Source of the DNA: a virus
Strand: one strand, 5' to 3'
Virus record (IMG/VR): IMGVR_UViG_3300025133_000356
Span: 1-34,672 of that record
DNA: 34,672 bases
Shown here: positions 3,974-22,309 of the stretch, one piece after another
Layout of the letters: every line of letters starts with the position of its first letter
Position numbering within the stretch: the first letter of the stretch is position 1
The notes under the pieces: generated by a model
Told to the model about the DNA's origin: nothing
Database searches by the model: none
The model's input: only the letters and a program-made list of their open reading frames with translations
Made by a program: the position numbers and the translations under genes

Positions 3974-4829
3974 AAAAAAAGTCCGAGGTAAACGGCACCT
4001 CCATGTCTTTCTCGTAGAAGCACGTCGAACACGTGAACGGTTGCGTCAAGTCAACCGTTGGAATACTTTTAGCATATTCTTTTCTTAGAAATCTTGAATC
4101 CATCGCCGGCATATTGTCAACGAAGTCATTAATAAAATGCTGATTTGTATTCTCATTAATTGAAGTAATAATCATCTTCAATTGGTTAGTAAGCAAAGAC
4201 GAAACTTTCTCAGTATTCTTGTTTCTAATATTGCTTTTGTTAATTAGCTGATTTTCTTCCTTGCCTGTTAACATGCGCACTGAAACTGTTGCGTTTGTTC
4301 TGGGCAATTGCACTTCAACGAAGCCTTCCTCGTTTATTTCTATTCCCTGTTCTGATAGGGCATCTGCCGTAACTACTTTTGCATCTTCAAGATCAAACTC
4401 GTGATCTTGCGAAGACCCGCATGCAGGACAAGAAACCTTTGTTTGATATTGCGGACCATAGCCAGTCACTCTGGCGCGAATAACAAGCGCATTCTTATCA
4501 CACACCAGCATATCATTTACTTTCACTCTCTTGTCAAGCACTATATTTTGTAGAAATCTATCTAAAGCAATTCCTTTTCGCAATAAAGCCTGTGAAGTTA
4601 ATATATCCTCATCTTTAGCTGTCATGAATCGAATTTCTAAGCTATCTTGGCCGGCCAAAGGATGGCCCTCTGGATAAAATTTACCCTGAGATGGCAAATC
4701 AACAAACTCTGTTGGAGCTGGCATCTGAAAAGATGCCGGTTGATTCTCTTGCTTAAGAAGATCGGGCATGGGAAGATCGGACGGGGTGTTCAGTGCGCCC
4801 GTGCGTTCTTCATTATTTCTCGCACCCAT
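3963..4829 (-). CDS. 26: gp26-like protein, probable tail assembly chaperone / baseplate hub component
   Basis: 288 residues; ATG with a GAGG site five bases upstream. After a low-complexity N-terminus (1-40) comes FVDLPSQGKFYPEGHPL and EIRFMTAKDEDILTSQALL, the segment I associate with T4 gp26-type proteins. Two Cys pairs (C134/C137 in SCPACG and C267/C270 in CSTC) could bind one zinc. T4 gp26 was long called a baseplate hub subunit; position two genes before the tape measure suggests a tape-measure chaperone. It is longer than T4 gp26 (208 aa). The C-terminus ends FFWPK on a T7 run that probably allows frameshifting into the next ORF. The 78-nt gap upstream (4830-4907) is A/T-rich with no clear promoter or terminator. 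Confidence 0.78.
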   Translation of the reverse strand: MGARNNEERTGALNTPSDLPMPDLLKQENQPASFQMPAPTEFVDLPSQGKFYPEGHPLAGQDSLEIRFMTAKDEDILTSQALLRKGIALDRFLQNIVLDKRVKVNDMLVCDKNALVIRARVTGYGPQYQTKVSCPACGSSQDHEFDLEDAKVVTADALSEQGIEINEEGFVEVQLPRTNATVSVRMLTGKEENQLINKSNIRNKNTEKVSSLLTNQLKMIITSINENTNQHFINDFVDNMPAMDSRFLRKEYAKSIPTVDLTQPFTCSTCFYEKDMEVPFTSDFFWPK

Positions 4830-4907
4830 TTTTACCTCTTTTGTCTTTTTCTAATATACAATATTTTAATAAAACTTTAAAGTCTTTTAAAATAATTATT
4901 GAAAATC

Positions 4908-5489
4908 TTACCTGGGAGTTTTGTCTCCCGCGGTGTTGACCGCCCAGTCATAACGGAAAGTAACATCTAGAGAAACCATTCCGTCTCCGGAATAATCTAG
5001 ATCTCCCCACTTTATGTCGGTAGGCCAAGCATTCTGAAGCCACCAACTTTCTGAAGTCTCAGTGTTGGGGCTGCGTTCGGAAGACGGGCCACCCTTGGAG
5101 GTCAAAGTTTTAATCTGAATCATGTTAAATGCACTAGTAGCGTCTGCTTTTGTGATGGTTCTCTCTGTGACCAGTTGAGCATTAGTCGGTATGACATATC
5201 CCATGTTAAGAAGTGACTCATAAAGACCGCGAGTCATATCGTTTTGGCCGCCTGGGTCAACAAACGATATCGTAACCGGCTCCCACTCCGCAACACCTGG
5301 ATAATAAAAAGTATGATTTAAATATTTATGTGGAGTCTCCCCAATCTTTACGCCCGGTCGGGAGGCTTTGGTAGCATAAAATTGTCCATTGCCGGGGAGG
5401 CCTGGAATCATGACGATAAATTTATATTGTCTCTTTGGCTCTACGTGGGCTTGCGCCCAGAAGAAGCTATTTCCTGGTTTTCCTGCCAT
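4908..5489 (-). CDS. 19: Tail tube protein (gp19-like)
   Basis: 193 residues. It forms the stacked hexameric rings of the inner tail tube through which DNA passes. Evidence: size close to T4 gp19 (163 aa), position directly after the sheath gene, and a typical beta-rich pattern: KRQYKFIVMIPGL near the N-terminus, KASRPGVKIGETPHKYLNHT, FYYPGVAEWEPVTISFVDPG, a Trp/Asp segment (WWLQNAWPTDIKWGDLDYSG) and MVSLDVTFRYDWAV near the end. The order of a tube beta-strand, YPG-x-W-x-P-V and a final DVTFRYDWA is characteristic of gp19-family tubes. ATG start with GGAGG ten bases upstream. The 61-nt gap to the sheath shows no clear promoter, so sheath and tube are likely co-transcribed. Confidence 0.88.
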   Translation of the reverse strand: MAGKPGNSFFWAQAHVEPKRQYKFIVMIPGLPGNGQFYATKASRPGVKIGETPHKYLNHTFYYPGVAEWEPVTISFVDPGGQNDMTRGLYESLLNMGYVIPTNAQLVTERTITKADATSAFNMIQIKTLTSKGGPSSERSPNTETSESWWLQNAWPTDIKWGDLDYSGDGMVSLDVTFRYDWAVNTAGDKTPR

Positions 5490-5550
5490 TTTCTACTACC
5501 CTCCAAAGGTGTTTCTATAATTAACTAGTTCTCTCCACTGTTTTTTTATT

Positions 5551-8535
5551 TTAATCTTCAAACGAAGCGCCGGATCTTGTGATTACGAAATCAAGTGCAA
5601 TGAACTCGATGGCTCGGGCAGGCTTGAGGAAGATCTTTGCATACATGATGTTTCTATCAATCAAGTCTTCGGTCGTAGTTGTCTTGTCCAGCACAACCCT
5701 GAAATCGGTTAACCCTAGTCCAATCTTAATCTCTTGCAAGAACGGCACGGCTCGACCGGTAAAGTTAGCCCAAGTTGCAGGAACGTTCTGTTCAAATAAG
5801 GTAGTTGCTGCAATTCGTGATATCTCTTTCTTGATGAAGATCATCAATCTTCTCACATTGATTCTATCTAGCGCAGAACGAGTCACCTGAAGCGTCTTTT
5901 GGCCGAAGATTACAATACCTTCTGCCGGGAAAGTGGCAATTGGGTTAATGTTTGCCTCATAAAGATCGTCTCGCATTTCTGATGTCAGGCGTTCACGGAC
6001 AGCGATGACTGGAACGCCGGCAGAGCCTTCTGTTAAGCCGCCGCGAGTAAATCCTGCGGGAGCGAACCATAAAGCTGATTTTGCCTGTGAGCTGGCCATC
6101 GTACCAATGCCGGCAATTGATGGCGGTACCCACAACATTGCGCCGTTGATCGTATCTCGAATTCGAATCCAGGGATAGTACGCACAAGCGTAACTTGAAT
6201 TCATCGAGCGATCTTTTAGGTTATCAATGGTGGCGGTGCTGCCACCAAAGGTCTCGGTACCAGATTCCCAAGTAGGCTGATACCCACCCTTAAGGTCGAC
6301 AACGGCTATAGCGTCGCCACGGTCCTCACAAGTATTTATCAGATGACTGGTGAGGCCTTCGTGCCAAATCCCAGGCATTGAAGCCATGTTCATCTCCACA
6401 ACTTCAGGATCAGAGATACTATCGATTGCTTTCTTGACGCTGTGGAAGGGGCTACTAGTCTTCTGACTAGTGTCTTCCATACTCGTGTTATTGAAAGGAT
6501 CTCTTTCGGTGATATTTACACCATCGAAGCCGCCGGCCAGAGGCATAGTAAAGCGATCATAGCCGGCATCAAGAATATCCTTGTAGGATCCAGACCAGGC
6601 AGTAACCGAATTTCCAGTACTGCGACTTCCGCTTGAATAATGTACCAAGCCGTCTTCGTCTGCGCGCAAATCATCTAGCGTAAAGATAAATGAAGTTTCT
6701 TTTGAGGCGTCGGCCATATCGGTCGACAATCGTCGGGCAACGTCTCGGTTACTTCGATCAAAATTAACGCCGTCGGCCGTCTCTCTAGAATCATATCCCC
6801 AATAAGCATCTTTCTCGCTGCCCAAGTTGCTATCAACAGACCCACTTCGTAAAGTGAATCTTGGGAATTCAAGTTTAATATCTACGCCTTCTGCGGGGCC
6901 GTCGTAGTTGACACCGCCGGTCCCAGCGTCATTGTTCAAGCTCATAACAGCGAAAGCTGTTGGCGAGGAAGATGCCATCTGCGCGGTATTAGCGTTGTTG
7001 GCTGCAATTTGAAGCGCTTTGACAACTGTTGCAGCACCCATAACATAGGCGTCGGAGTAAGCAGTCGCTTGATTGTGCTTGTCCATGGCTGTAACTTTAG
7101 TAGATACAAGCTTAAAGTCTTTTGGTTTTTCTGGGCCGTAGTAGCCGAATGGAAGAAGCAGGGGATCTGCCGTACCAGCATCGACATCGGAAGCTAATTG
7201 AACACGAATGTATTTCGACTGATTCCTATAGTTGCCGTACTCAATATATCTCTTAGTGCCCTCATCCCAGTCAGTATAGGCGTCGCCTATTTTTTTGCCG
7301 ACATAATTTACAGAATTCGGATTCAAGTTGCAGCTGGTAAATCTTTCCAATACTTTGACGGCCCCGTCGTTGTCGTCAAGTCTTCTCACGATGACAGTGA
7401 AGGAGCCATATGGATCTGCTGCGCTTCTAGCTAGTTTGACATCTTGAACCGAAATCTTAAGATTGTTCTGTGCCCACTCTCCACTGTCTAACGTCACTAA
7501 TCTAAACAACTTTGAAGTATGGCTTGGGTGCGTAGTGGGGTCGAAGCCGCCTTCGGGGACATTGACGCCGGCAGCATCAGAGTGTGACCGTAAATCCTGT
7601 GAAATAACCCAACCGGTTGTGGCTCGCTGTGCGCCTTCTCTGTGGTGTTGCCAGCCTGAAGTACCGTTGCCTAGGCCAAAAACCACACCAACAGATTCGC
7701 CGGCAGCAGTGCCGGTCGATAAGTCATTCACAGCTTTATCGTAAGTCTCGCCTAGCCAATAAGTTTCTCTATTTTCTCTATTCCTAGCCTGATTGCTGGT
7801 CAAAATTGGATTAGTGTTTAAAACTTTACGAATGTATTTGTTGCTATTCTTGTTGAAGTTAAAATCAGTCTTCTTAATAATAGCACCGTCAGCGTCTCTA
7901 ATCACTCCGGTAAAAGTATTTTTAGCTGCCTTATTGTAAATAAGGGTACAATTGGCTTCGGCCTTGGCCTCGGCGGCTCCCGGAATGGTACCGCTAAGAG
8001 CAAAAGATCCTTCTGTCAAATAAATGACAGCAGCTAATGAGCCGGTGACATCGCCGGCACCACCATTTGTAGCACCCGAGCCAGAAGGAGCAATGAACAA
8101 GCCGTATGCACCACCTTTGGTGGCCGGGGCCGTACCAATTTCTGCGCTGGTACCAACGGCGCCTTGGAGCCAAGTTTCCCAGCCACCATAGCCAGAATAA
8201 GCCTGTTTTTGAGGGTGTTCTTCACCTAGGAGACGTACGTATGTTAAAGGAGCAGCATTTCGTAACCAAGCTTGAGCGGCATACATGCCATACATCGGGG
8301 TAGTATTGTTTCCTTCCCTCCAAACGTCGCCACCCTGTCCTCCGGGGACAGGTGTGCCGAAGACATCTACGAATTCGGAAAATGACTCAACCCTAACAGG
8401 TCGCATGCTCGGACCTTTGGGGGCGCGGCCAATAATTACGGGACCTATGGGGTCGCCAATATCAGGTAATTGGGAATTATCGATCTCATCGATAAAAATG
8501 CCGGGGGATACAAACTTAAATTTTTTAACAGACAT
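5551..8535 (-). CDS. 18: Contractile tail sheath protein (gp18-like), enlarged
   Basis: 994 residues, against 659 for T4 gp18. The N-terminus (SPGIFIDEIDNSQ, then GPVIIGRAPKGPS) is the usual sheath start. The conserved C-terminal domain is at about 840-994, with RERLTSEMRDDLYEANINPI, ATFPAEGIVIFGQKTL, INVRRLMIFIKKEISR and a final ARAIEFIALDFVITRSG. These C-terminal pieces form the contractile core. The extra length is in the middle (about 100-650), Gly/Asn/Asp-rich, probably surface domains on the outside of the sheath. ATG with GGAGA eight bases upstream. It leads a transcription unit with the putative promoter at 8594, followed by the tube and chaperone genes. Confidence 0.92.
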   Translation of the reverse strand: MSVKKFKFVSPGIFIDEIDNSQLPDIGDPIGPVIIGRAPKGPSMRPVRVESFSEFVDVFGTPVPGGQGGDVWREGNNTTPMYGMYAAQAWLRNAAPLTYVRLLGEEHPQKQAYSGYGGWETWLQGAVGTSAEIGTAPATKGGAYGLFIAPSGSGATNGGAGDVTGSLAAVIYLTEGSFALSGTIPGAAEAKAEANCTLIYNKAAKNTFTGVIRDADGAIIKKTDFNFNKNSNKYIRKVLNTNPILTSNQARNRENRETYWLGETYDKAVNDLSTGTAAGESVGVVFGLGNGTSGWQHHREGAQRATTGWVISQDLRSHSDAAGVNVPEGGFDPTTHPSHTSKLFRLVTLDSGEWAQNNLKISVQDVKLARSAADPYGSFTVIVRRLDDNDGAVKVLERFTSCNLNPNSVNYVGKKIGDAYTDWDEGTKRYIEYGNYRNQSKYIRVQLASDVDAGTADPLLLPFGYYGPEKPKDFKLVSTKVTAMDKHNQATAYSDAYVMGAATVVKALQIAANNANTAQMASSSPTAFAVMSLNNDAGTGGVNYDGPAEGVDIKLEFPRFTLRSGSVDSNLGSEKDAYWGYDSRETADGVNFDRSNRDVARRLSTDMADASKETSFIFTLDDLRADEDGLVHYSSGSRSTGNSVTAWSGSYKDILDAGYDRFTMPLAGGFDGVNITERDPFNNTSMEDTSQKTSSPFHSVKKAIDSISDPEVVEMNMASMPGIWHEGLTSHLINTCEDRGDAIAVVDLKGGYQPTWESGTETFGGSTATIDNLKDRSMNSSYACAYYPWIRIRDTINGAMLWVPPSIAGIGTMASSQAKSALWFAPAGFTRGGLTEGSAGVPVIAVRERLTSEMRDDLYEANINPIATFPAEGIVIFGQKTLQVTRSALDRINVRRLMIFIKKEISRIAATTLFEQNVPATWANFTGRAVPFLQEIKIGLGLTDFRVVLDKTTTTEDLIDRNIMYAKIFLKPARAIEFIALDFVITRSGASFED

Positions 8536-8593
8536 TAATCAGCTCTCCTTTTGGAAAAATAAAACAGTATAGAAATCCAATATTATTTCTTAA

Positions 8594-8602
8594 ATAAATA
8601 GT
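8594..8602 (-). promoter_or_regulatory. Putative late promoter motif, copy 2
   Basis: ACTATTTAT on the coding strand, 58 nt before the sheath ATG, in a 94-nt A/T-rich gap. Same orientation as the other three copies. No terminator hairpin is seen in this gap. Confidence 0.45.
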
Positions 8603-8629
8603 GTTATGTTTAACCAAAAACCAAAATTA

Positions 8630-9511
8630 TTAATCTCTGTAAAAAGCATCTTTCTCTAGATTTTCGTTGATGTCTCCCAAAATAACCCTTTCCCTGGGTA
8701 TCTTTACTTCAACTGCATTTTCTCTAACAACGACGCGTGGCTTTGTTTGGTTTTTATCTTCACCCACTAAATAACCCATGACTTTGATGTTTATTTTGGT
8801 CTGAAACTTTCTTTCTTCTTCGGCTAAGTTATTAATATTATTATCTAATGCGAAATCACCCTCAATAAAAGTCTCATAATGATGGCCGTCCTCATATATA
8901 AAAACAGAGTTAATTCCACGAGGTTGAGGGAGTGTTGCAAAGGGGCCAATCAGGTCATTCATGTGCTGTTGGTATTCTGTTCTTAGCGTCACCGCATAGC
9001 TAACTTCAACAAAAACCGGAGCAGGGGCCGATATTGTTTGATAAACAACTTTATTATTTTTTCTTGGAAAATTAAGCTGCCCCCTCTTATACTTGGCACC
9101 AGCTCTTGCAAAATTTCTAGTTTTTTCTTGATTGATTCTCCTAGACACAACAATGGAGCCGCCTTGCTCATCGTTAACTTCCATGGTATTTCCAAAAAAC
9201 CTCTTCGTAAGGTCTTTATTGAAGCTAGTTCTCTCCAGTGTTATGACTGGCAGATTAAAAGAACCATCTCTATCATTTCTTAGACTCTTTTCTTGCTTGA
9301 CATTAAAAGATCTTTCTGTGCCAGTCCACAAAACTGGCACTTTCTTCCAGCCTTTGTTTTTTTGAACTCGCAAATCTAAAGTTTCATCAATCCAATTATA
9401 TAAAGCTTTGTCGATAGTTTCAATAGTGGAAGGTGTGATGATTTTTTCATGAATTATTGTTGGATCATCTACTTCGGCATAATCATGATTTTCATCTTTG
9501 CTACGTGGCAT
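8630..9511 (-). CDS. 15: Tail completion / sheath terminator protein (gp15-like)
   Basis: 293 residues from the ATG at 9511, which has GGGAGGG eight bases upstream. A longer in-frame version reaching 9577 would overlap the upstream gene by 77 nt and lacks such a site, so I reject it. The chosen start still overlaps the upstream stop by 11 nt. Features: VSYAVTLRTEYQQHMNDLI, GHHYETFIEGDFALDNN, KINIKVMGYLVGEDKN and a basic end RENAVEVKIPRERVILGD. T4 gp15 (272 aa) caps the tail at the head-proximal end after sheath polymerisation; size, neighbours (neck gp14-like before, sheath after) and this C-terminal pattern, which I associate with aquatic T4-like phages, support the assignment. Homology itself was not tested. 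Confidence 0.65.
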   Translation of the reverse strand: MPRSKDENHDYAEVDDPTIIHEKIITPSTIETIDKALYNWIDETLDLRVQKNKGWKKVPVLWTGTERSFNVKQEKSLRNDRDGSFNLPVITLERTSFNKDLTKRFFGNTMEVNDEQGGSIVVSRRINQEKTRNFARAGAKYKRGQLNFPRKNNKVVYQTISAPAPVFVEVSYAVTLRTEYQQHMNDLIGPFATLPQPRGINSVFIYEDGHHYETFIEGDFALDNNINNLAEEERKFQTKINIKVMGYLVGEDKNQTKPRVVVRENAVEVKIPRERVILGDINENLEKDAFYRD

Positions 9512-9992
9512 CGAACAAACCCTCCCTAGCTCTAATGGCCCGGGCAGATATCTCAATTCTATGATCAACCTGGCCAAACAACTGCTTTGGCTCTTTTAAA
9601 GTAACCAATTCATAGTAATAATCTCCATACAAAACAAAATCTCCCTCTCTAACGAACAGGTCTTGATCTTCTGTTAATCGTCTTTTGTGAAAATGTACTG
9701 TTATAGAGGCTTTTTTGTCTACTCCATAGTGATCTGTGAAAGTTTCTGGGCCTTCCCATTCAACTAAGGCATAAACCCTTACAGGGGGCAAAAAAGTCTT
9801 ATTGATCGCTTCGCCATATAAAGGATGAAAATCAGTAATCTCCAAATCGATTGGATAATATAAAACTTGCTGGCCTATCACCCTCTCTATAAGCTCATCA
9901 TTGACTTGTTTTACCAAATCCCTCTCTTTTTTCCCCAAAAACATTGGAGGAGGAGGAGCTGATGGCTGCGACCATTTATCTTTTTCTGCCAT
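9501..9992 (-). CDS. 14: Neck / head-completion protein (gp14-like)
   Basis: 163 residues; ATG with a G-rich (GGGGG) site about seven bases upstream. A Pro-rich N-terminus (SAPPPPMF) leads to NDELIERVIGQQVLYYPIDL, then FHPLYGEAINKTFLPPVRVY, and a beta-rich second half (VREGDFVLYGDYYYELV). The arrangement of a YYP-type strand followed by YGEAINKTF resembles the YYVPRE and FGEDLKNKF region of T4 gp14, which helps close the head and connect the tail. T4 gp14 is larger (256 aa), so this is a short form. It overlaps the start of the gp15-like gene and follows the gp13-like gene by 10 nt, the same order as T4 genes 13-14-15. Confidence 0.7.
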   Translation of the reverse strand: MAEKDKWSQPSAPPPPMFLGKKERDLVKQVNDELIERVIGQQVLYYPIDLEITDFHPLYGEAINKTFLPPVRVYALVEWEGPETFTDHYGVDKKASITVHFHKRRLTEDQDLFVREGDFVLYGDYYYELVTLKEPKQLFGQVDHRIEISARAIRAREGLFDAT

Positions 9993-10002
9993 CTTTTACC
10001 CC

Positions 10003-11277
10003 CTATCCGACAAAGACGCCCAATGGTGCATTCATAAGTATTTCATTGGCTGCTTTGGCAGTTTCTGATTGTTTTACTGTAAGCTTATTATAAGTCAACT
10101 CATCTAATATAGTTTTAAGCTCCTCTCTTAATTTTTCTTGTTCTTCTTTTGCTTGCGAAAGCAATTCGGAATGATTTAAAGTAACAGATTCTCCTGGGAT
10201 TGGAATAGTCGAAAACTTTCCGCGAATCTGTCCCAACATTTCTTTAGTCAAGGCCAAGCCAAAACGTCGAATCCATTGTTTACCAATGCTATTGATGCTT
10301 TTATATGGAATATTAGCAAAAGGCAGTGTGTTTAAATTATTAATGCCAGAAACACCAACTCTTCTATCCTCATCTTCTTCCCAAGCATTTTTATGAATAG
10401 TAAACTGAACCCACATCTTTCCAACCTGTGAACTTCTTGGTTGCGGATAAATTCGAATTTTATTATTTTTCAATTCATAACTATAGTGTGAGTTTCTTGT
10501 CCAAATGGCATCTTCATAGGCCATGGCCTGTAATTTATTCTGATAAGGAGGAATAACTTCGAAAGTAGAGTCATCCGCGAACATGCCATAAGTTGATAAA
10601 TTACCAACTGAATTCATTCCGCCATAATAACCAAAGAACCTCCACATTGCATGTGGCGTTTTAAAGAAAACTTTTTTAATATTTATTTTCTTATCATTGA
10701 TAAGCAAACTGCCCGAAAAGCTGCTGCTGATGACAGATTGTAAATCATAATCCTGCACCTTATCTTCAATATCAAAAGAAGCAGAATACTCATTTTCGTA
10801 TCCATCGAGGCCAATCTCTGTGCCGATCCCGTCTGCGACGCGGCCTGCATAAGCTAGCCTAAATTTAGGATATTTTAATTCTATGTTTGTGCCGGGAGAA
10901 ACATCATCTGATGATCCAGACAAAAGACCGTCATGGTCAAAAGAGCCAGTTGTGTCACCCAGCATATTTGGTAAAGAATTTTTAGCTTGATGAATATTAA
11001 TAATATAAGAATATTCCAAAACTGCTTCTTCATATGCTGAATATACATTTTGCTCTGTTAACTCGATATCTAAAACATCGCCGCCTAGCTTTTTAAAGGT
11101 ATAGGATACTTGATCGATGGCGCCAGAAACAAAGTTTGCATCGTATAATGAGGAGTTTGTGTCAGCATATATGCCGAACGCATAGCTTGTAATAGTCTCC
11201 GCAGTAGATCGGGTACCCGTGACAGGTAAAACAATCGTACTAGTCTGACTAGTCGGTGTTAAGGTGGGTGTTGCCAT
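10003..11277 (-). CDS. 13: Neck / head-tail connector protein (gp13-like)
   Basis: 424 residues; ATG with GGAGG eight bases upstream. After a Thr/Ser-rich N-terminus, residues ~65-95 carry LDIELTEQNVYSAYEEAVLE and YSYIINIHQAKN, a helical pattern I associate with gp13-type neck proteins and other head-tail adaptors. The middle holds an aromatic segment (MWRFFGYYGGMNSVGN) and a beta-strand region (NKIRIYPQPR, GKMWVQFTIHK). The C-terminus is an amphipathic helix with many Glu/Lys. It is longer than T4 gp13 (309 aa). It is the first gene after the terminator that closes the capsid operon and before gp14/gp15-like genes. An A/T stretch TTTATAAACT 30 nt upstream might act as a promoter, but this is weak. 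Confidence 0.62.
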   Translation of the reverse strand: MATPTLTPTSQTSTIVLPVTGTRSTAETITSYAFGIYADTNSSLYDANFVSGAIDQVSYTFKKLGGDVLDIELTEQNVYSAYEEAVLEYSYIINIHQAKNSLPNMLGDTTGSFDHDGLLSGSSDDVSPGTNIELKYPKFRLAYAGRVADGIGTEIGLDGYENEYSASFDIEDKVQDYDLQSVISSSFSGSLLINDKKINIKKVFFKTPHAMWRFFGYYGGMNSVGNLSTYGMFADDSTFEVIPPYQNKLQAMAYEDAIWTRNSHYSYELKNNKIRIYPQPRSSQVGKMWVQFTIHKNAWEEDEDRRVGVSGINNLNTLPFANIPYKSINSIGKQWIRRFGLALTKEMLGQIRGKFSTIPIPGESVTLNHSELLSQAKEEQEKLREELKTILDELTYNKLTVKQSETAKAANEILMNAPLGVFVG

Positions 11278-11317
11278 TCATGAAGCCTCCGATGTAGTAA
11301 TTAGTTTATAAAATTAG

Positions 11318-11351
11318 AAAACCCCGCCTCAGAATTCCAAGACGGGGTTTT
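11318..11351. terminator. Strong, probably bidirectional terminator after the capsid gene
   Basis: A nine-base perfect stem (11318-11326 with 11343-11351: AAAACCCCG / CGGGGTTTT) with a 16-base loop. On the minus strand it is followed by CTAATTTT; on the plus strand by TG after five T. It lies between the stop of the major capsid gene (11373) and the neck gene start (11277), and would end the scaffold-capsid transcript. Confidence 0.85.
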
Positions 11352-11372
11352 TGCTCTAATTAGCAGATCTTA

Positions 11373-12314
11373 TTAGACAAGATCTTTGACGACAACCAAG
11401 CCATACATATCAGGTCGGACCATCTGTTTGGCATAGCGAGTCATCACGCCCTTACGGGGCACGAAGTCCTCGGTACCGAAGATCGTCGGAGTGACCTGGA
11501 GAGGTACGTACGGAGCGTAAACATAGCCGCTTTCAAGGAAGCTTCCACCTTTACGGCCGACAAGAATAAGGTTGCGTAGGAAGTACGGATCAACATACAC
11601 GTCCCATTTCTTGCTAATGCTGCCAGTCTTTAGCGCACCAACAGTGCCTCTGTCAGTATCAACACCAACGTTGGCGCGGAATCCAGAGGTAAACTCAAGG
11701 AGGTTGGCAACTTCAGGTGAGGTCACGATGAAGTTAGCTCCGCCACGAAGAGTCTTTCTGTGGATAGCCGCCGACACATCGTTAATGGTCTCGACAAGAG
11801 TCTCATACCACTCACTGACAGTACCGGTGAAGTCCGGGCCGGCGATGTTGGCGGCGACTGCATGGTCAGCACCTGTTTCGCGGTTGACGAAACGGCCGGG
11901 CATGCGGGACCAGTAAAGAGTACCACCGGTCGCACCAACGACAAGATCCTCAAGAATCTCACGATCAATCTCTAGAGCAATGTGCTCGGAAAGAATTGAA
12001 GTAAGCTCGACCTCGGCATCCAAGTTGTGGTAGGCGTTAAGATCCTGACCAAGCTCTGGAGTCCACTTAGCTTTGAGCTTTCTGGTGATCGCCGTGACAG
12101 CCACGGAATCGACACGAATGTCAATCTCGGGAATATCAGTGCTAACCTCGTTAGTAAACGGGCCGGCCGGCGTGGTCGCATGCGATTCAAGCAACCACTC
12201 TGAAGCACCCTTGACTGCACCAAGTGCATTCGCGGGGTCGAAGTTATCAGCCGTTGCATATTCCCAAACTAGTGCCGCGCCGTTTCCGCCCAAAGTACCA
12301 GAAAGAGTCGTCAT
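11373..12314 (-). CDS. 23: Major capsid protein gp23-like, C-terminal part (frame broken)
   Basis: 313 codons from an ATG inside the first copy of a 62-bp repeat. It contains the C-terminal two thirds of a gp23-type capsid protein: IDIRVDSVAVTAITRKLKAK, WTPELGQDLNAYHNLDAEVE, LTSILSEHIALEIDREIL, NFIVTSPEVANLLEF and the closing KGVMTRYAKQMVRPDMYGL. The ATG overlaps the stop of the upstream half as ATGA, so reinitiation is formally possible, but no ribosome site is visible and the ATG corresponds to an internal Met (VTMTTLS) in the repaired protein. Deleting one repeat copy joins this exactly to the upstream half to give 597 residues (T4 gp23 has 521). The most likely reading is one gene with an artefactual or mutational duplication. 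Terminator follows. Confidence 0.88.
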   Translation of the reverse strand: MTTLSGTLGGNGAALVWEYATADNFDPANALGAVKGASEWLLESHATTPAGPFTNEVSTDIPEIDIRVDSVAVTAITRKLKAKWTPELGQDLNAYHNLDAEVELTSILSEHIALEIDREILEDLVVGATGGTLYWSRMPGRFVNRETGADHAVAANIAGPDFTGTVSEWYETLVETINDVSAAIHRKTLRGGANFIVTSPEVANLLEFTSGFRANVGVDTDRGTVGALKTGSISKKWDVYVDPYFLRNLILVGRKGGSFLESGYVYAPYVPLQVTPTIFGTEDFVPRKGVMTRYAKQMVRPDMYGLVVVKDLV

Positions 12315-12424
12315 GGTGACACCAGTGTTGGGGGTAATAACAAAACGAATAACGGTTTTGCCGAAAGAGTCGTCATGGTGACACCAGTGTTGGGGGTAAT
12401 AACAAAACGAATAACGGTTTTGCC
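12301..12424. repeat. Exact 62-bp tandem duplication inside the major capsid gene
   Basis: Copies at 12301-12362 and 12363-12424 are identical over 62 bases. 62 is not a multiple of three, so the second copy shifts the frame of the capsid gene. The duplicated segment encodes part of GKTVIRFVITPNTGVTMTTL. No inverted repeats or mobile element flank it. Confidence 0.97.
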
Positions 12425-13228
12425 CATGCCCGGTGCAAAAGAGGTCAAGCGACGCTGGAGCGTTCCGCCCGTAGCCGCGACGTTAATAGCCGACAAATTA
12501 TCTAGATTAAGCTCTTCTCCGCCGTCCTGGAATAGACTAGCCGAAAGGTCATAGATCATAGCTGCTGAACCGGAAAGATCCGGATCAAAGCGAACCAGTT
12601 TGCCAAAGTCATGAGCGCTGATGACGGTACCACCGACGCCAGAAATAATGCCGGCGGCGAGAACACCCTTGAGATCAGAAGCACCATCTGTAGCACCATT
12701 AACAGTGCCAGTTGCGTGGAGATAGATACCATCTCCAATCGTCACGTTCGCCAACGGAGCAGAATATCCATTGCGCAAGTTGTAGAATCCGCCGCCGTCA
12801 TTCGTGGAAAGATCAACACCACCAGTTACCTGGCTAGCGACCACGTTACCGCCATAGAGCGATGTCTGGGCGCTGTCACCTAGGCGCTCGTCAGTTTGGG
12901 TAAAGTCGAGGAAGAAGATGAGGCCTGACGGCAAACTCATCGGTTGCACGGAAACAAGGTCGTTGGCGACCAAGGATCCGAAAACTCGGCGGACGATCGG
13001 GAACGCTACAGAAGCGAAACCCTCAACACCACCACCAGCCATTGTGCTGGCCTCTTTTAATAGTTGTGAAGCCTGATTCTCAAGGAGTCGGGCCATTGCA
13101 TTCTTGGTATGATCAGCTCCGAGGCCTTCCAAGAGTCCAGTGCGTTCCCATTTATCCATTAGGGCAGCACCTTCTCTTTTTAGGTCGCGGCTAACAATAC
13201 CTTCAGTTAATTTATCTAAGACAGACAT
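12311..13228 (-). CDS. 23: Major capsid protein gp23-like, N-terminal part (frame broken)
   Basis: I start it at the ATG 13228 (GGAGG seven bases upstream, protein MSVLDKLTEG); an upstream in-frame start at 13279 would overlap the scaffold gene and has no such site. 305 codons to a TGA inside the repeat; the last ~16 residues (AKPLFVLLL and onward) are out-of-frame translation of the first repeat copy. Capsid features: MARLLENQASQLLKEASTM, then VAFPIVRRVFGSLVANDL, VSVQPMSLPSGLIFFLDFT, all typical for gp23. In T4 the N-terminal 65 residues are removed by gp21 after an (I/L)-x-E motif; here LLKE (E59) is the best candidate by position. It follows the scaffold gene by 23 nt. Confidence 0.9.
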   Translation of the reverse strand: MSVLDKLTEGIVSRDLKREGAALMDKWERTGLLEGLGADHTKNAMARLLENQASQLLKEASTMAGGGVEGFASVAFPIVRRVFGSLVANDLVSVQPMSLPSGLIFFLDFTQTDERLGDSAQTSLYGGNVVASQVTGGVDLSTNDGGGFYNLRNGYSAPLANVTIGDGIYLHATGTVNGATDGASDLKGVLAAGIISGVGGTVISAHDFGKLVRFDPDLSGSAAMIYDLSASLFQDGGEELNLDNLSAINVAATGGTLQRRLTSFAPGMGKTVIRFVITPNTGVTMTTLSAKPLFVLLLPPTLVSP

Positions 13229-13251
13229 GTTTAAACCTCCTATATATGTTT

Positions 13252-14301
13252 TTATGTTAAGCCTGCTAAGATTTTCCATCTCGAAAGAGATGAATCATCT
13301 TTCTTTGTTGCTTTTTGGTTTCTACCATGCAACAATAATCCAGCTGAAGAACTTTTCACGACTTCACTCAGTGATTGTGGCTGTTTTTTAGTTTTTGTGC
13401 TGCCCACTGCGTTTTGAAGAGTTTCGTAAATAACTTTTGCTTCTTCAACTGTTTCGGTTATTGATATAGCTTCGACAATTTTATTTTTTTGCCGCTCATT
13501 CAACGAGTCGCTAATCAAAACCTTATTCGTATATAATAATTTCGCACTAGACAAAGAAGATTCAGTTAATTTATCTCTTAAGAGGTAAATCACTTCCTTC
13601 ATTTCTTCTTTTTCTTTTGCATGAGTTTTATTTTCAAGTTTTAGACCTTCTAGTGCTTTCTTCATGGCCTCAAGTTCTTCTTTTACTTTGGTATCTTGGG
13701 CCCGGGCTAAAACTTGTTCTTGCGCATGATCTAAGTGCGCGGTGGGGACACCATTATTGCCCCAACCAGAAGAAGTGGGCTCTATATCGACAACCAACTC
13801 CTCCAGAATTGACGAAAGAATATCCTCGTCTAATTCAATTTCTTCCTCTAAACTTTCAACCTCTTCCTGCAAAGCACGGGGCTCGTCTTCTGGGACTTCA
13901 TCGCCTAGAATATCGGCCGCGAGATCTTCTTGGCTTTCTCCCGGGGGAGCGAGACCTTCTTCGTCCTGCATTTTCTTTGTCAGCTCGTCAAAGTCAATTT
14001 CGATTTCCTCTTCTTCCTCCGGACAGGGACAAAGCTTTTCGCCATCGACAGTAACAACAGGCATATCTTTAAGAGCAGAATCTTCTTCTGGGGGATCCAT
14101 CTCCAAGCCTGGTTCTTCCAAGCCCATCCCTTCTTCTTCGGCGCCTAGAGCCATTGGATCTTCCGGCTGCTCTAATAGGGCTTCAACTGCTTCTTTGATT
14201 TGATTTGAATACTTTTCTACTATCATGTCTTCGGCATTTTTGAGAGCTGCTTCGCGAAGAGCCTCTGCGTCGACTATAGCTTGTTCTAACATTGATGACA
14301 T
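13252..14301 (-). CDS. 22: Prohead core / scaffolding protein (gp22-like)
   Basis: 349 residues, very acidic in the first half with long Glu/Asp runs between about 50 and 180. The N-terminus (AIVDAEALREAALKNAEDMI, then EKYSNQIKEAVEALLEQ) is helical; residues ~200-260 form a Lys/Glu coiled coil; the last part is basic and Ser-rich, ending SRWKILAGL. Scaffold proteins fill the prohead and are degraded by the gp21 protease; acid-rich helical composition, size (T4 gp22 is 269 aa) and place directly before the capsid gene fit this. ATG with GGGAG eight bases upstream. Two promoter-like elements lie in the 156-nt gap before it, so scaffold and capsid probably form a separately transcribed high-level unit. 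Confidence 0.78.
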   Translation of the reverse strand: MSSMLEQAIVDAEALREAALKNAEDMIVEKYSNQIKEAVEALLEQPEDPMALGAEEEGMGLEEPGLEMDPPEEDSALKDMPVVTVDGEKLCPCPEEEEEIEIDFDELTKKMQDEEGLAPPGESQEDLAADILGDEVPEDEPRALQEEVESLEEEIELDEDILSSILEELVVDIEPTSSGWGNNGVPTAHLDHAQEQVLARAQDTKVKEELEAMKKALEGLKLENKTHAKEKEEMKEVIYLLRDKLTESSLSSAKLLYTNKVLISDSLNERQKNKIVEAISITETVEEAKVIYETLQNAVGSTKTKKQPQSLSEVVKSSSAGLLLHGRNQKATKKDDSSLSRWKILAGLT

Positions 14302-14337
14302 TTATAATCTCCCGGGTTGAAAACGTAAATTATCAGA

Positions 14338-14346
14338 ATAAATAGT
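14338..14346 (-). promoter_or_regulatory. Putative late promoter motif, copy 3
   Basis: ACTATTTAT on the coding strand, 36 nt before the scaffold ATG, in the longest gap of this part of the genome (14302-14457). Same orientation as copies 1, 2 and 4. Confidence 0.45.
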
Positions 14347-14368
14347 ATTGTAATAGAACAAAAGAAAA

Positions 14369-14376
14369 TATTTATA
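14369..14376 (-). promoter_or_regulatory. T4-type late promoter octamer TATAAATA
   Basis: The coding strand reads GGTATATAAATATTTTC, which contains the exact T4 late promoter octamer, 67 nt before the scaffold ATG and 22 nt before motif copy 3. An eight-base A/T match can arise by chance in an A/T-rich gap. Confidence 0.4.
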
Positions 14377-14457
14377 TACCCGTGACCTAGCAGGATAACG
14401 GATTGGCTAAAAAACGCTTCATAGGTTTATATAATATAGCGTGAAAAAGCACATTAT

Positions 14458-15411
14458 TTAATCTTTTATCTCTTCTAAAACCATTTTATATATTTTTCCT
14501 GTTTTATTATTTCTTATACTTAAATACTCTTCTTCCTCAATAACTGTCCAATCACCTCTATCATTTTTAAGATGTAAGTCGCCAGTATATAAATTTGCCC
14601 AACGTCTGGACGGCGATCCTAAATCATGCGAGTTATCACTGCCCGGTACTACATTGCCGGCTACTTCAAGTTTCTCTGTTGGGCTCGTAGTTCCGATGCC
14701 GACATAGCCAGACTGATCAACGACCAAGTGGTTTTCATTTGCATTGGCGCTGATTGCAAGGTGATTTAATAAGTTATTAGTAACATCACATCTAATGTTT
14801 GCCATCGTCGACCCGTCGCCACTCTGAAATATAATTTGGCCGTCGCCGTCGTCGGCGCTGCGAAGAAGAAGTTTGGGGTGTTCATCATTAAGCTCCAGCA
14901 GGGCACCTGGAGAAGTTGTACCAATCCCAACCCGGCCGGAAGGGTCAATAACAAAATGATCCTCGGCTGTGCCGGCACTAAATGCAAAATGATTTAATGT
15001 GTTAGACGTGGTGTCGCAACGCATATTGAAAAGTTGCGTGCTGGCCGCATTTTTAAATAAAATTTGGGAGTCGCCATGAGAATGGTTTGTTTTGAAAAGA
15101 AGCTTAGGGTGTTCGTCATTAATCTCCAATGATGCACCAGGAGAAACTGTTCCAATTCCAATCTTGCCAGTAAAACTATGTATATCGTCATCAGAATCAC
15201 CAAAACTAGTGCTGCCGGTGGCGCTAATATTTGTAACTTGCTGGTTAACAACATTGACTTTTAATTCATTGGCTACCAGAGTGCCAGAGACTTCTACGTC
15301 GCCCTTGAAAAAACTAGAACCAGTGATTTGATGTCTGGCAGTTGAAGAATCTCCAAAACGCGTGCTACCGGAAATAAGGAGCGCATTTTTTATAACTATC
15401 TTATCTGGCAT
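14458..15411 (-). CDS. Fibre / virion appendage protein with two DEHPKL modules
   Basis: 317 residues; ATG with AGGAG nine bases upstream. Ser/Gly/Thr/Asn-rich, as in phage fibres. The N-terminal part has VSGTLVANELKVNV and GSTSFGDSDDDIHSFTG. Two ~75-residue modules follow (about 85-155 and 160-230), each with IGTxSP, DEHPKLL, QI-F and an NxLNH core. The C-terminal domain (DLGSPSRRWANLYTGDLHLK, GDWTVIEEEEYLS, NNKTGKIYKM) is nearly the same as that of the 563-residue protein at 17403-19094, including 33 identical bases of DNA. Likely a trimeric fibre or head/tail decoration protein that contacts the host surface; the binding partner is not visible. It is the last gene of the appendage cassette. 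Confidence 0.72.
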   Translation of the reverse strand: MPDKIVIKNALLISGSTRFGDSSTARHQITGSSFFKGDVEVSGTLVANELKVNVVNQQVTNISATGSTSFGDSDDDIHSFTGKIGIGTVSPGASLEINDEHPKLLFKTNHSHGDSQILFKNAASTQLFNMRCDTTSNTLNHFAFSAGTAEDHFVIDPSGRVGIGTTSPGALLELNDEHPKLLLRSADDGDGQIIFQSGDGSTMANIRCDVTNNLLNHLAISANANENHLVVDQSGYVGIGTTSPTEKLEVAGNVVPGSDNSHDLGSPSRRWANLYTGDLHLKNDRGDWTVIEEEEYLSIRNNKTGKIYKMVLEEIKD

Positions 15412-15428
15412 GCGTCAAGCTCCTATTG

Positions 15429-17399
15429 TTAAGTAGAAGCCATGCCAGTGACTACCCACTGCATCATGCTGGCATTCGCTCCGACACATACAATATCAAC
15501 ATAGTCGCCTACTACGCATTGACTGCCAGAAAAATACAAGAAATCCTTGCCGTCGCCGGAAGGTCCGGTCCCGTCAAAAGATATTGCACCTGGGGTTCCA
15601 TTGCTGGAAGCATCATTGATATAGCCAAAAAGGTAATCATTTGTTTCATCGCCTCTAGCGATTTTTATTGAACCAACGTTGGCATTTACTATCATTGCAC
15701 GGAAATGATAACCCATGAATTGAAATGCCTGGTTGGTATTAACAGCTGTGGGCAAAGTAATGGTGGCAACACTGGCGCCGCCGTTGGATGCCTGGGTTTG
15801 AGTTAACTTAAAGATGCCGCCACTATAGCCCATCGCAGAAGTTACGTGCATGCTGGACAGATTTAAATCAGATCCACTGATTGCGGTCATCGTCTTCTTG
15901 GACATCCAGCCGCCATAAGCTCCATTATCTGCAGATGCCGCGTTAAAAACACCGTCATAGGTCTGGAATCGTATAGCAGCATGCGTATCGCCGAGCGTTG
16001 CTCCGCGGGAGTGTCGGAAATCGACATAAGGGCTGGTACTGGCAGTTGAATCCAAATTAACGGACAACATGGCGGTACCGCCATGTTTAAAGTTAATGTT
16101 CGCCGCCCCAGCATCTAAATTAATATCGCCGTCGACATCAAAAGTGAGATCTGCATTAGCTCCCTCGCTATCAAAAGTGGTAAGGGTTGTTGATCCGCTG
16201 CCGGCAACTTTTAAAGAAGCCCAGGCGCTGTGATTAGCAGCAATGCCGCTAGCTGCACCAGGCTGTGGTCGTGTCCATATCTTAAAAGATCCTGAAGTTG
16301 TTTCAAAGTCAAAGGCAGAGCTGCCGTCGTTGTTGATTGCTACTCGGCCTGATTCTGTATCTAGCTCGATATCTCCATCGACGTTAAAATATAAATCAGC
16401 GTTATCTGCATCGTCGTCAACAGTTGAAATTGTCGTTGCGCCATGTTGCGCAACCTGAATTTTAAATAAATCACCCGTATCCTGATCATCATAAATCGTA
16501 AATGCTGTATTATCACAGTCAAGTAAGAAATGAGGATCTTTGTTGTCTTTGATGTATACTTGACCGCCGTCTGAATCAAGGTAAATATCACCTGAAGATG
16601 AAAGAACTAAATTGCCGGTGCTGGTTGAAGCGCTAACATATGTGGTACCAGTACTCCAGCCAACTTTATGGCCGAGTGGAAGGAGTATTCCACTGGTGCC
16701 AAATCTAAACGATTCGTCGCTATTTACGTCGGAAAATAACACGGCGTCGGCAGTTGCTACGTTAATAGAGCCTCTTAGGGTACCGCCTCCTTTCAAGTCG
16801 ATTGTGTCGCCGGCAGCATCTAAAATAATATCTCCCGACGCATCAATTATTGCATCTGTAGCTGCCCATGTTGTATCGCCGTCACTAGCCACTGTAAAAG
16901 TCGAAGCGTTAGAGTCATCATATGACAATTTAAGCTGAGTACTTGTACTCAAGACTTCAAGTTGCGAGTCGGGATCCTGAACTCCAATGCCAATTTTTCC
17001 AGTACCATCAATAACCAGATCATTTTCGTCCGAACCGGCGGCAATTACAAGATGATTCAGCGCATTAGATGAAGCGTCGCAACGAATCCAGGCTAGCTGT
17101 GTGCCATCTGTACTTTTAAATGCAATTTGGCTATCGCCATTGCCACTGGTCTCGCTAGCTTGAAAAAGAAGCTTTGGGTGTTCATCTTTGAGTTCTAGCA
17201 GAACGGCAGGAGAAGTCGTTCCGATGCCGACTTTGCCGGTAGAGTCAACATGCAAAGCATTAACACCGGTACTATTGAGAGTAACAGTAGAGCCCGAAAG
17301 CACAACGGGTACCGAGCCTGAAATAACTTGATAACCAGCGGAATTACTACCGCTAATAACCATCCATCCACCATTAGATCCACTTACAACAACTGGCAT
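15429..17399 (-). CDS. Large fibre-like structural protein
   Basis: 656 residues; ATG with GAGG eight bases upstream, the site overlapping the stop of the preceding fibre gene. The N-terminus is repetitive Val/Ser/Gly (VSGSNGG, VISGSNSAG, VISGSVPV). One DEHPKL module lies at about 60-140 (GKVGIGTTSP, KDEHPKLLF, NALNHLVIAAG). The middle has beta-rich repeats with the pattern DGDTTW / ASGDIILDAAGDTIDL / DVDGDINLDAG, six or so units of aspartate-rich strands. The C-terminal ~150 residues differ from the neighbours (MGYSGGIFKLTQTQ, FQFMGYHFRAMIVNAN, LYFSGSQCVVGDYVDIV) and look like a globular tip. It is probably a fibre shaft with a head domain. Assignment rests on composition, repeats and neighbours. 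Confidence 0.68.
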   Translation of the reverse strand: MPVVVSGSNGGWMVISGSNSAGYQVISGSVPVVLSGSTVTLNSTGVNALHVDSTGKVGIGTTSPAVLLELKDEHPKLLFQASETSGNGDSQIAFKSTDGTQLAWIRCDASSNALNHLVIAAGSDENDLVIDGTGKIGIGVQDPDSQLEVLSTSTQLKLSYDDSNASTFTVASDGDTTWAATDAIIDASGDIILDAAGDTIDLKGGGTLRGSINVATADAVLFSDVNSDESFRFGTSGILLPLGHKVGWSTGTTYVSASTSTGNLVLSSSGDIYLDSDGGQVYIKDNKDPHFLLDCDNTAFTIYDDQDTGDLFKIQVAQHGATTISTVDDDADNADLYFNVDGDIELDTESGRVAINNDGSSAFDFETTSGSFKIWTRPQPGAASGIAANHSAWASLKVAGSGSTTLTTFDSEGANADLTFDVDGDINLDAGAANINFKHGGTAMLSVNLDSTASTSPYVDFRHSRGATLGDTHAAIRFQTYDGVFNAASADNGAYGGWMSKKTMTAISGSDLNLSSMHVTSAMGYSGGIFKLTQTQASNGGASVATITLPTAVNTNQAFQFMGYHFRAMIVNANVGSIKIARGDETNDYLFGYINDASSNGTPGAISFDGTGPSGDGKDFLYFSGSQCVVGDYVDIVCVGANASMMQWVVTGMAST

Positions 17400-17402
17400 A
17401 AT

Positions 17403-19094
17403 TTAATCCTCTATTTCCTGAAGCATCATTTTATACTTCTTTCCGGTTTTGTTATTTACCACCTCTAAATAGTCCTCTTCCTCAACAATTGTCCAATCAC
17501 CTTTATCATTTTTAAGATGTAAGTCGCCAGTATATATATTTGCCCAGCGATGAGCTGAAGATCCCAAATCATACGCATTGTCTGCACCTGGCAAAACACT
17601 TCCCGTAAGATCAGTTTGGCCGCTGACAGACAGCTTGGAAGTTGGACTCGTAGTTCCGATGCCGACGTTGCCACCAGACGCTACAACCAAATGATCTTCA
17701 CCAGAGCCTGCGCTGATCGCGAAATGGTTTAAAGCGTTTGACGTAGCGTCACAACGAAAATTAACCAACTGGGTGCCGTCCAGGCTTTTAAACTTAATCC
17801 CACCGTCGCCGTTGGCGTGGCTACTTTGTATTGTTATCGTCGGGTGCTCATCATAAATATGCAAGGCAGTGGCAGGAGCTACGATGCCGATACCAACCTT
17901 TGTGGTACCGCCGGATGCTGGATCTCCAAAATAGGCATAAGTGGTGTTTGCAGTCCCCTCTCCGACTAGCGAAAGTGTTGAGGTTGCTGCGGCGCCGGCG
18001 CTGGCCACGCCCATGTGGATAACGCCTTCTTCGGCGCCGGCGGTGACCGTGGTACCGGCGCCCAAGATCCACGCCATGTCCGCATCAGAATCTGCGGCGT
18101 CTTTACCGGTAAAGAAAATTGCGCCAACATCATCACCAGCTGCTTCGTCGGTGGTGCTCTTGTAAAACCTCAATATCGAATGAATAGCATCGTCATTAGA
18201 ATTTTCTATCAATACCTCGGGTTTATAAGTAACAGAGCTTTTGATATGAAGTAGCTCTGATGGGCTAGTTGTGCCAATACCGATCTTGCCATCAGACGCT
18301 ACAACCAAATGATCCTCACCCGTAGATCCATTAATGGAGAAGGATTCCATGATATTGTTTGTCACGGCGCATCTAATATTTGCCATCGTTGAGCCGTCGC
18401 CGCTTCGGAAAATGATCTGAGGGTCTCCATTCGCGGAGTTGCTGCGAAGAAGAAGCTTCGGATGTTCATCGTTAAGTTCTAATAAGCCCGTAAATTTATG
18501 TGTATCGTCAGACGAGTCGCCAAAGCTTGTGCTACCGGTTGAACTAATATTAACAATCGTTTCGTTGTGAACGTTAACTTTGTATTCGTTAGCAACCAAG
18601 GTGCCAGATACAAAAAGCGAACCGGTCATGCGCATTATTCCAGCCTGATAATCGTATGTTAAGTTTTTACTTCCGGATATCATTGTGCCGGCAGCGGTCG
18701 ATCCAGAATTGAAAAGTATTTGTGTATTTGAACTAGAAGCAAGAAGCTCTTTTGAGAGCATCTTTATGTCAGTTGAGCCTACAACAATCGACGAAACAGT
18801 GTCGACGTAATCTATTCTTGCCCACCTAGATCCGGTGGTGTAAACAAGCCAATCATCAACTTGCCAACCAGTATTGCCCTCTAAATTTGTTGAGCCGGCA
18901 GTATTAACTTGCCAATATTCTCCAGTACTGATTTTGCCCGAGCCGCTTGGCTCGCCAACAAGGCCATTTGCATATCCACCATTTGCATGGGAGCCAGTAA
19001 ATAAAAGGCCACCAGATAGTGCTGTGTTGGTACTAGCATTCCAATAGCCTCTGAATCTGGAAATTCCTATAAAAGATAAGCTGTCACTCGGCAT
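17403..19094 (-). CDS. Fibre / virion appendage protein with two DEHPKL modules
   Basis: 563 residues; ATG with AGGGGA upstream. The N-terminus (ISRFRGYWNASTNTAL, then YWQVNTAG, WQVDDWLVYTTGSRWARIDY) looks like a small beta-domain with conserved Trp and may attach to the virion. VSGTLVANEYKVNVHN and GSTSFGDSSDDTHKFTG match the 317-residue paralogue. DEHPKL modules occur at about 215-280 and 410-480. An Ala-rich insert between them (AAGDDVGAIFFTGKDAADSD) is unique. The C-terminal domain (RWANIYTGDLHLKNDKGDW, then NNKTGKKYKM) is shared with 14458-15411, which suggests gene duplication with later insertion. Likely host-contact fibre. The 124-nt gap before it (19095-19218) shows no convincing terminator or promoter. 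Confidence 0.72.
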   Translation of the reverse strand: MPSDSLSFIGISRFRGYWNASTNTALSGGLLFTGSHANGGYANGLVGEPSGSGKISTGEYWQVNTAGSTNLEGNTGWQVDDWLVYTTGSRWARIDYVDTVSSIVVGSTDIKMLSKELLASSSNTQILFNSGSTAAGTMISGSKNLTYDYQAGIMRMTGSLFVSGTLVANEYKVNVHNETIVNISSTGSTSFGDSSDDTHKFTGLLELNDEHPKLLLRSNSANGDPQIIFRSGDGSTMANIRCAVTNNIMESFSINGSTGEDHLVVASDGKIGIGTTSPSELLHIKSSVTYKPEVLIENSNDDAIHSILRFYKSTTDEAAGDDVGAIFFTGKDAADSDADMAWILGAGTTVTAGAEEGVIHMGVASAGAAATSTLSLVGEGTANTTYAYFGDPASGGTTKVGIGIVAPATALHIYDEHPTITIQSSHANGDGGIKFKSLDGTQLVNFRCDATSNALNHFAISAGSGEDHLVVASGGNVGIGTTSPTSKLSVSGQTDLTGSVLPGADNAYDLGSSAHRWANIYTGDLHLKNDKGDWTIVEEEDYLEVVNNKTGKKYKMMLQEIED

Positions 19095-19218
19095 AAATTA
19101 TTCCCCTACTAACATATAATTAGGCTGCTATAACTAAAATCGTCATGATAAGTTATAATATATGCGCTCCCCAAAAAGCCTTAACCTTGGCCGTTTCTTT
19201 TTGCAATCTTCTATATTT

Positions 19219-20292
19219 CTATCCAATACCCATGACTTTCCCAACTGTTGCAACGCTAGACCCCATAATTTTTCCAAGTGAGGTATTTGCGGTACCGCCA
19301 AATTTACTACCACCTACCCAAATATACTGGTAACACCCTATCGTCGTTCCAGTACTGGCGTAGGCACGGTTTGTAATATCTGTGGTGGGCGCGGATTGGG
19401 CTGTTTGCCAATCGTATGTGCCGGCTCCGACCGCTTTGCTGACGCCCCCTGGTCTAAAGTTATCAGAGGCGTGGGCGGCGAATGTATCTGTTGTAATATC
19501 ATCATATCCTAAACAAGCGGTTTCAGTGCCGTGAAAATCATCATCGCCGTCGACGCCATATGAAATACAATTTTTTATTGTTGTGCCATGAATTCCATAA
19601 GTTTGATCACCGCCAGAATTGTTATTGTATATACAGTTATATACATTTGCAGCGTATATTCCTTTACCAGCGGTTTTTTGATAATCTGTCTGTACAGTGC
19701 AGTTAATAACATGGCCGCGGCCATCAACGTTAATACCGTTGGTATTAAAATCCTGCACTAAACAAGAATAAACCGTGGCCACGCTGCTGCCGCCGTATTG
19801 ACCATCAATGCCAGTTGTTGCAGTCGAAGTGCCTTTATGAGTACATATAATCTGGCAACGATCAAGTGTCGCGCTTCCATAAAGTTCTACACCCCAAACA
19901 CTTGATTTTATAATACAATTAGTTGCAGTACCGCCGCCGTAGGTGCTAACTGAGAAAGCAGAAATGCCGACAGAGGTGCCGGTATATATAATTGTGCAAT
20001 GACTAATGGAGCATCCGCTAGCGCAGCTGACTACACCATGGCCACCGCCGCCGTCTCCAGAGTTGGTTATAATTACATCTTCTGGATTTCCTGTTGCACC
20101 AATAAAACTAAGGTTAATTCCACTTACGCCAGACTGAGCCTTGATAGTTTCAGTATATGTTCCAGCGCCAATATATATGTTATCACCGTTTGATTCAATA
20201 GCTAGAGCACCAGCAATTGTGAGCTTGGCATTATCCCAATCAGCACCACTATTGGAATTGTTGCCAGATTTACTTACATAGATATCCGCCAT
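19219..20292 (-). CDS. Right-handed beta-helix (pectate-lyase-fold) virion protein
   Basis: 357 residues. The start MADIYVSKSGNNSNSGADWD and LTIAGALAIESNGDNIYIGA, GTYTETI is the classic opening of a parallel beta-helix (DUF1565-like) protein. Rungs follow with repeated N-C-T/I pattern: ISHCTIIYTG, ATNCIIKSS, LDRCQIICT, VYSCLVQDF, VINCTVQTD, IKNCISYG. Each rung carries an Asn/His/Ser-Cys, giving a stack of Cys along the helix. Such folds serve as fibres, tailspikes or polysaccharide depolymerases; I see no clear catalytic Asp/Glu/Arg set, so enzyme activity is not claimed. The C-terminal 40 residues are Gly/Ala/Ser-rich. ATG with an unusual run of eight G nine bases upstream as ribosome site. 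Confidence 0.75.
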   Translation of the reverse strand: MADIYVSKSGNNSNSGADWDNAKLTIAGALAIESNGDNIYIGAGTYTETIKAQSGVSGINLSFIGATGNPEDVIITNSGDGGGGHGVVSCASGCSISHCTIIYTGTSVGISAFSVSTYGGGTATNCIIKSSVWGVELYGSATLDRCQIICTHKGTSTATTGIDGQYGGSSVATVYSCLVQDFNTNGINVDGRGHVINCTVQTDYQKTAGKGIYAANVYNCIYNNNSGGDQTYGIHGTTIKNCISYGVDGDDDFHGTETACLGYDDITTDTFAAHASDNFRPGGVSKAVGAGTYDWQTAQSAPTTDITNRAYASTGTTIGCYQYIWVGGSKFGGTANTSLGKIMGSSVATVGKVMGIG

Positions 20293-20308
20293 TGCACTGG
20301 GCCCCCCC

Positions 20309-21835: not shown

Positions 21836-21850
21836 ATTATTATTTCCTTA

Positions 21851-22309
21851 TTATAATCCTATGCCCTCGTCTGTCAAGCCGGATCCGGTTAGAGCAAACA
21901 TTTGACTTGCAGGAATCCCTGTCAGCGTCGCGACAACTCTATATTCCCTACTTCCATTTGAATCGTTTGGGGCTGAGATGTAAATTTCCTTGCACTTGAC
22001 ATCTGAAAATTCATACGCATCCTCATCGGTATCCAATTCAACAAAATGTTTACCAGTTATAACATAGGATCCGGCAGTATCTTTGGAGGAGTTAAAATGT
22101 ATATAAACCTTACCAGTGCTAGAATCTCCATGCCTAATGACAGTGACACTTTTCGTCACATAAGGAAATACAATTTTATGCTCCTCGTTGTGACCTAAAG
22201 TCGCAGATCCAGTTATCCATGGCATACCAGAAACTTGATATGAACCGACGTTATGGAGCCCGACTCCATATTTTGTAAAGGGTTTCGGGGCGCTCTTGCT
22301 ATAAGACAT
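21851..22309 (-). CDS. Small beta-rich virion protein, possible head decoration
   Basis: 152 residues; ATG with AGGAGA seven bases upstream. Sequence alternates in beta fashion: KYGVGLHNVGSYQVSGMPWI, HKIVFPYVTKSVTVIRHGD, GKVYIHFNSSKD, HFVELDTDEDAYEFSDV, KEIYISAPND, REYRVVATLTGIPASQMF. No signal peptide or membrane segment. Small beta-sandwich proteins next to capsid and fibre genes often coat the capsid or sit at fibre joints; both are possible here. It follows the bS21 gene and begins the appendage cassette. I do not recognise a named family. Confidence 0.62.
   Translation of the reverse strand: MSYSKSAPKPFTKYGVGLHNVGSYQVSGMPWITGSATLGHNEEHKIVFPYVTKSVTVIRHGDSSTGKVYIHFNSSKDTAGSYVITGKHFVELDTDEDAYEFSDVKCKEIYISAPNDSNGSREYRVVATLTGIPASQMFALTGSGLTDEGIGL

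Follow-up and report, generated by a model that had tools for sequence, protein, structure and literature searches.

The window analyzed here is the whole of IMG/VR virus record IMGVR_UViG_3300025133_000356 (34,672 bases). Its major capsid gene, gp23, lies in a T4-like phage neighborhood in which Pfam matches identify the portal protein gp20, a T4-type terminase, a prohead protease, a T4-type baseplate protein, and the tail sheath. No close DNA relative of the window was found in the phage collection searched, and the genome collection searched yielded a single partial relative, with 59% identity. As given in the window, gp23 is divided between two ORFs that follow one another on the minus strand, with a terminator-like hairpin downstream (Table 1). 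Both gp23 fragments match Pfam family PF07068 (Gp23) and PHROG 138, and the PF07068 scores of both are above the curated cutoff of 24.4 bits. The length of the N-terminal part in Table 1 is counted from the MSVL start; counted from an upstream ATG at 13279, the same ORF is 322 aa long.

Table 1. Features at the gp23 locus of the window (window coordinates)
Feature	Position	Strand	Remarks
62-bp unit, first copy (3' copy relative to the minus-strand gene)	12301..12362		Exact repeat
62-bp unit, second copy	12363..12424		Exact repeat; just one of the two copies is present in L082
gp23, N-terminal part	12311..13228	-	305 aa, of which the first 288 are native and the last 17, before the stop, are out of frame; PF07068, 42 bits; AGGAGG upstream of start
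gp23, C-terminal part	11373..12314	-	313 aa, starting at internal Met284 of the intact protein; PF07068, 199 bits; no Shine-Dalgarno sequence upstream
Terminator-like hairpin	11318..11351	-	Downstream of gp23; 15 pairs, loop of 4, T-rich tail

The original prediction placed an exact 62-bp tandem duplication at positions 12301 to 12424, and our analysis confirmed two identical, directly adjacent copies. An exact adjacent repeat of a 62-mer lies far beyond what chance would produce. At period 62, the matching run in the window extends for 62 bases and no further, which fixes the register of the repeat unambiguously and leaves no homology shared between its breakpoints. The unit codes for gp23 residues 269 to 289, GKTVIRFVITPNTGVTMTTLS. 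Its length of 62 is not divisible by 3, so that the second copy shifts the frame and splits the gene into two ORFs. That these overlap as ATGA was likewise borne out; the overlap is made up of a native internal Met codon and a stop that happens to occur once the frame is shifted. We looked for a Shine-Dalgarno sequence upstream of the internal ATG at 12314 and found none; the native start at 13228 is preceded by AGGAGG. No Rfam family or tRNA was found within the 34,672-base window, and an RNA element at the duplication site is therefore not indicated. Removal of one copy yields the single frame that had been predicted: positions 13228 to 11373 span 1,856 nt, which less 62 gives 1,794 nt, i.e., 598 codons including the stop, or 597 residues. 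The AlphaFold2 model of the intact protein was poor (mean pLDDT, 53; pTM, 0.31) and carries no argument here.

A search of IMG/VR with a 27-mer from the unit, with the window's own record left out, returned no record except IMGVR_UViG_3300025103_000476 (12,928 bases; referred to here as L082), and a search with the tail sheath protein returned the same record at 100%. L082 aligned end to end with window positions 4484 to 17473 in two alignments, with 100% identity over 4484 to 12362 and one mismatch over 12363 to 17473; there was no other indel. In L082, the two alignments share exactly 62 bases, and the unit is therefore present there once, at L082 positions 7818 to 7879. The L082 gp23 gene is one uninterrupted frame with normal neighbors, encoding 614 residues if read from an upstream ATG and 597 if read from the ATG with a ribosome-binding site, and the continuous gp23 reading that the original prediction obtained, VTMTTLSGTLGG, is present in it as real sequence. 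The sole mismatch corresponds to one residue in the protein encoded at window positions 15429 to 17399 (SINVATADA in the window and SISVATADA in L082). L082 may derive from a different sample than the window; its dataset, 3300025103, was not found named in the literature searched.

Comparison with gp23 of close relatives had been proposed as a check, and we made it with loci fetched by gp23, terminase, and sheath queries. The gene was one full-length frame in 83 loci; L082 is counted among these, and some of them come from a common contig or population. The nearest long relative, a 112.7-kb contig (L166), has an intact gp23 with 80% identity and an unchanged gene order. Internal breaks in gp23 were seen in just two loci, L008 and L101, and both were of other kinds; the remaining incomplete genes were cut by contig ends. 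No gp23 split of the window's kind was found in the relatives, and L082 and L166 both keep one frame. Internal breaks were also not found in the terminase (79 full-length copies) or the portal protein (60 full-length copies) of these loci. Among 24 relatives, mean identity was 15% for the unit-encoded residues 269 to 289, compared with 82 to 89% for residues 61 to 100 and 93 to 94% for residues 361 to 400. Judged by these identities, the duplication site is in one of the least conserved, fastest-varying stretches of gp23.

The two broken genes among the relatives were examined individually. In L008 (IMGVR_UViG_3300030106_005241, positions 4850 to 5010), the gp23 frame is broken within the same variable stretch. 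The break is an 8-base gap relative to the 95%-identical L195 (IMGVR_UViG_3300030104_007229); several clustered differences follow immediately, and there is no tandem repeat. The site varies among strains, and the gap may reflect either a genuine change or faulty assembly. We considered a recurrent natural split at the duplication site and rejected it, since the L008 break, lacking a tandem repeat, is a different event. In L101 (dataset 3300009418), gp23 has a one-base gap near position 19433 relative to L102 (dataset 3300025280). This gap is the only difference between the two over 19,989 aligned bases and is probably a consensus error.

We also assessed how often repeats and gaps arise in such sequences. 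The related loci (1.8 Mb) contained 25 entries for exact tandem repeats, with periods of 15 to 36, every one divisible by 3, as expected of repeats tolerated inside genes, and no frame-breaking exact tandem repeat was found there besides the 62-base repeat of the window. Forty-three pairs of near-identical overlapping contig stretches (two of them overlapping stretches of one contig), with 264 kb aligned, contained 20 gap openings totaling 27 gap bases, which places a clean 62-base surplus outside the usual differences between such contigs. The alignment fell into two pieces in just one of these pairs (L148 and L153), and there the pieces were parted by a diverged stretch and did not overlap.

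We conclude that the surplus 62 bases are very probably an assembly expansion rather than biology and that the contig is otherwise that of a normal T4-like phage. The true phage genome most likely contains the 62-mer once, inside one uninterrupted 597-residue gp23 gene. An assembly error was the first explanation offered in the original prediction, and it is supported by L082, with its single copy, its intact gp23, and one mismatch in 12,928 bases, and by the relatives, which keep one frame. Extra tandem copies are a recognized class of assembly error, with examples of 42, 240, and 654 bp, and their signature is below-normal read depth over the copies together with stretched read pairs (PMC2397507). 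The window resembles the tandem expansions described by Phillippy, Schatz, and Pop in 2008 (PMC2397507) in that an extra adjacent copy was included in the assembly; those expansions, however, were detected by alignment to reference assemblies, whereas that of the window was detected by means of a second contig of the same population. What marks an expansion artifact is an exact extra adjacent copy that is lacking in another assembly of the same sequence, and this is the relation of the window to L082.

As to how such an expansion could arise, the simplest explanation, and the probable one, is that two pieces with an exact 62-base overlap were joined end to end with the overlap left unmerged. 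Neighboring nodes of a de Bruijn graph overlap by k - 1 bases (PMC10462168). At a k of 63, such an overlap would give 62 bases, which is a numerical fit only. Variation among co-occurring strains in the fastest-varying stretch of gp23 would make the assembly graph branch, and strains may have played a part in this way. An abutted overlap should leave copies that are 100% identical and breakpoints with zero microhomology, as observed here. The zero microhomology is weak evidence for an artifact; about half of duplications with random breakpoints are also expected to show none. Literature searches on tandem-duplication artifacts in general found nothing specific, and those on the k values of sequencing-center pipelines found general metagenome papers only.

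The alternative that survives best, although we regard it as improbable, is that some phages in the population truly carry a recent 62-bp tandem duplication. Such a duplication would knock out gp23, and its carriers would be defective or would be kept by a helper phage or by reversion to one copy. The exactness of the two copies would suit a very recent event, and the window and L082 may represent different samples or strains; the single mismatch between them shows that their consensus sequences do differ slightly, and a duplication-carrying variant in one sample is therefore conceivable. However, the sole other contig of the population has a single copy, the breakpoints lack the short homology expected under replication slippage, and no comparable event was seen in the 1.8 Mb of relatives or among the near-identical contig pairs. 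Moreover, gp23 is essential in T4-like phages, and a genome carrying the duplication should therefore not dominate the consensus. If the duplication were nonetheless true, the phage would be unusual among T4-like phages in having a capsid gene that is split or that switches. Still more doubtful is a real and frequent 62-bp duplication that generates a two-piece or switchable capsid gene, with single- and double-copy genomes coexisting.

We give very little credence to a working split capsid, in which translation would terminate and restart at the ATGA, giving two polypeptides that assemble together. The overlapping ORFs do jointly contain every gp23 residue, and L008 has a different frame break within the same variable stretch. 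However, L082 and the large majority of relatives have an intact gene, the internal ATG lacks a Shine-Dalgarno sequence, and the ATGA is accounted for by a native Met codon and a chance stop, with the first product gaining 17 out-of-frame residues. The ranking of a true duplication and of a split capsid below an assembly error, as originally proposed, thus stands, given the single copy and intact gp23 of L082 and the single frame of the relatives. It is just as hard to believe that L082 is wrong, a real two-copy repeat having been collapsed into one and the window being correct: assemblies are also known to collapse tandem copies erroneously (PMC2397507), and the 62 bases of the repeat are close to common k-mer sizes, but with one copy the essential gene is whole again and matches 83 related loci in frame and alignment, and a collapse that did so would be a coincidence.

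With the surplus 62 bases read as an assembly expansion, the duplication is an ordinary finding. It serves mainly as a warning that an essential gene can be broken in a metagenome contig by one surplus overlap; such breaks can be tested for cheaply by aligning the contig with a near-identical one from the same population. Compared with gp23 of T4-like phages (PF07068, PHROG 138), to which both window fragments belong by their matches and of which the intact 597-residue L082 gene is an example, the window copy alone is interrupted by a surplus 62 bases. In a protein search of phage records, Mel-JY01 (47%), Flavobacterium phage immuto (49%), and RM378 (41%) outranked cyanophages (about 33%). The Far-T4 phages, which include Rhodothermus phage RM378, are reported to have structural genes near the capsid gene (PMC4360716), as does the window. 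The order of best hits hints at membership of the window phage in the Far-T4 clade, which we offer as a lead only.

Window positions 14458 to 22309, which lie between the gene for the prohead protease and the one that precedes gp23, contain a block of repeat-bearing, fiber-like genes with GIGTTSP motifs, and similar fiber-like genes occupy the same place in a relative, contig IMGVR_UViG_3300030333_008334 (L083, L166). Two 207-nt stretches in these window genes (14452 to 14658 and 17397 to 17603) are 75% identical to each other, and L082 ends within the second of them, at window position 17473.
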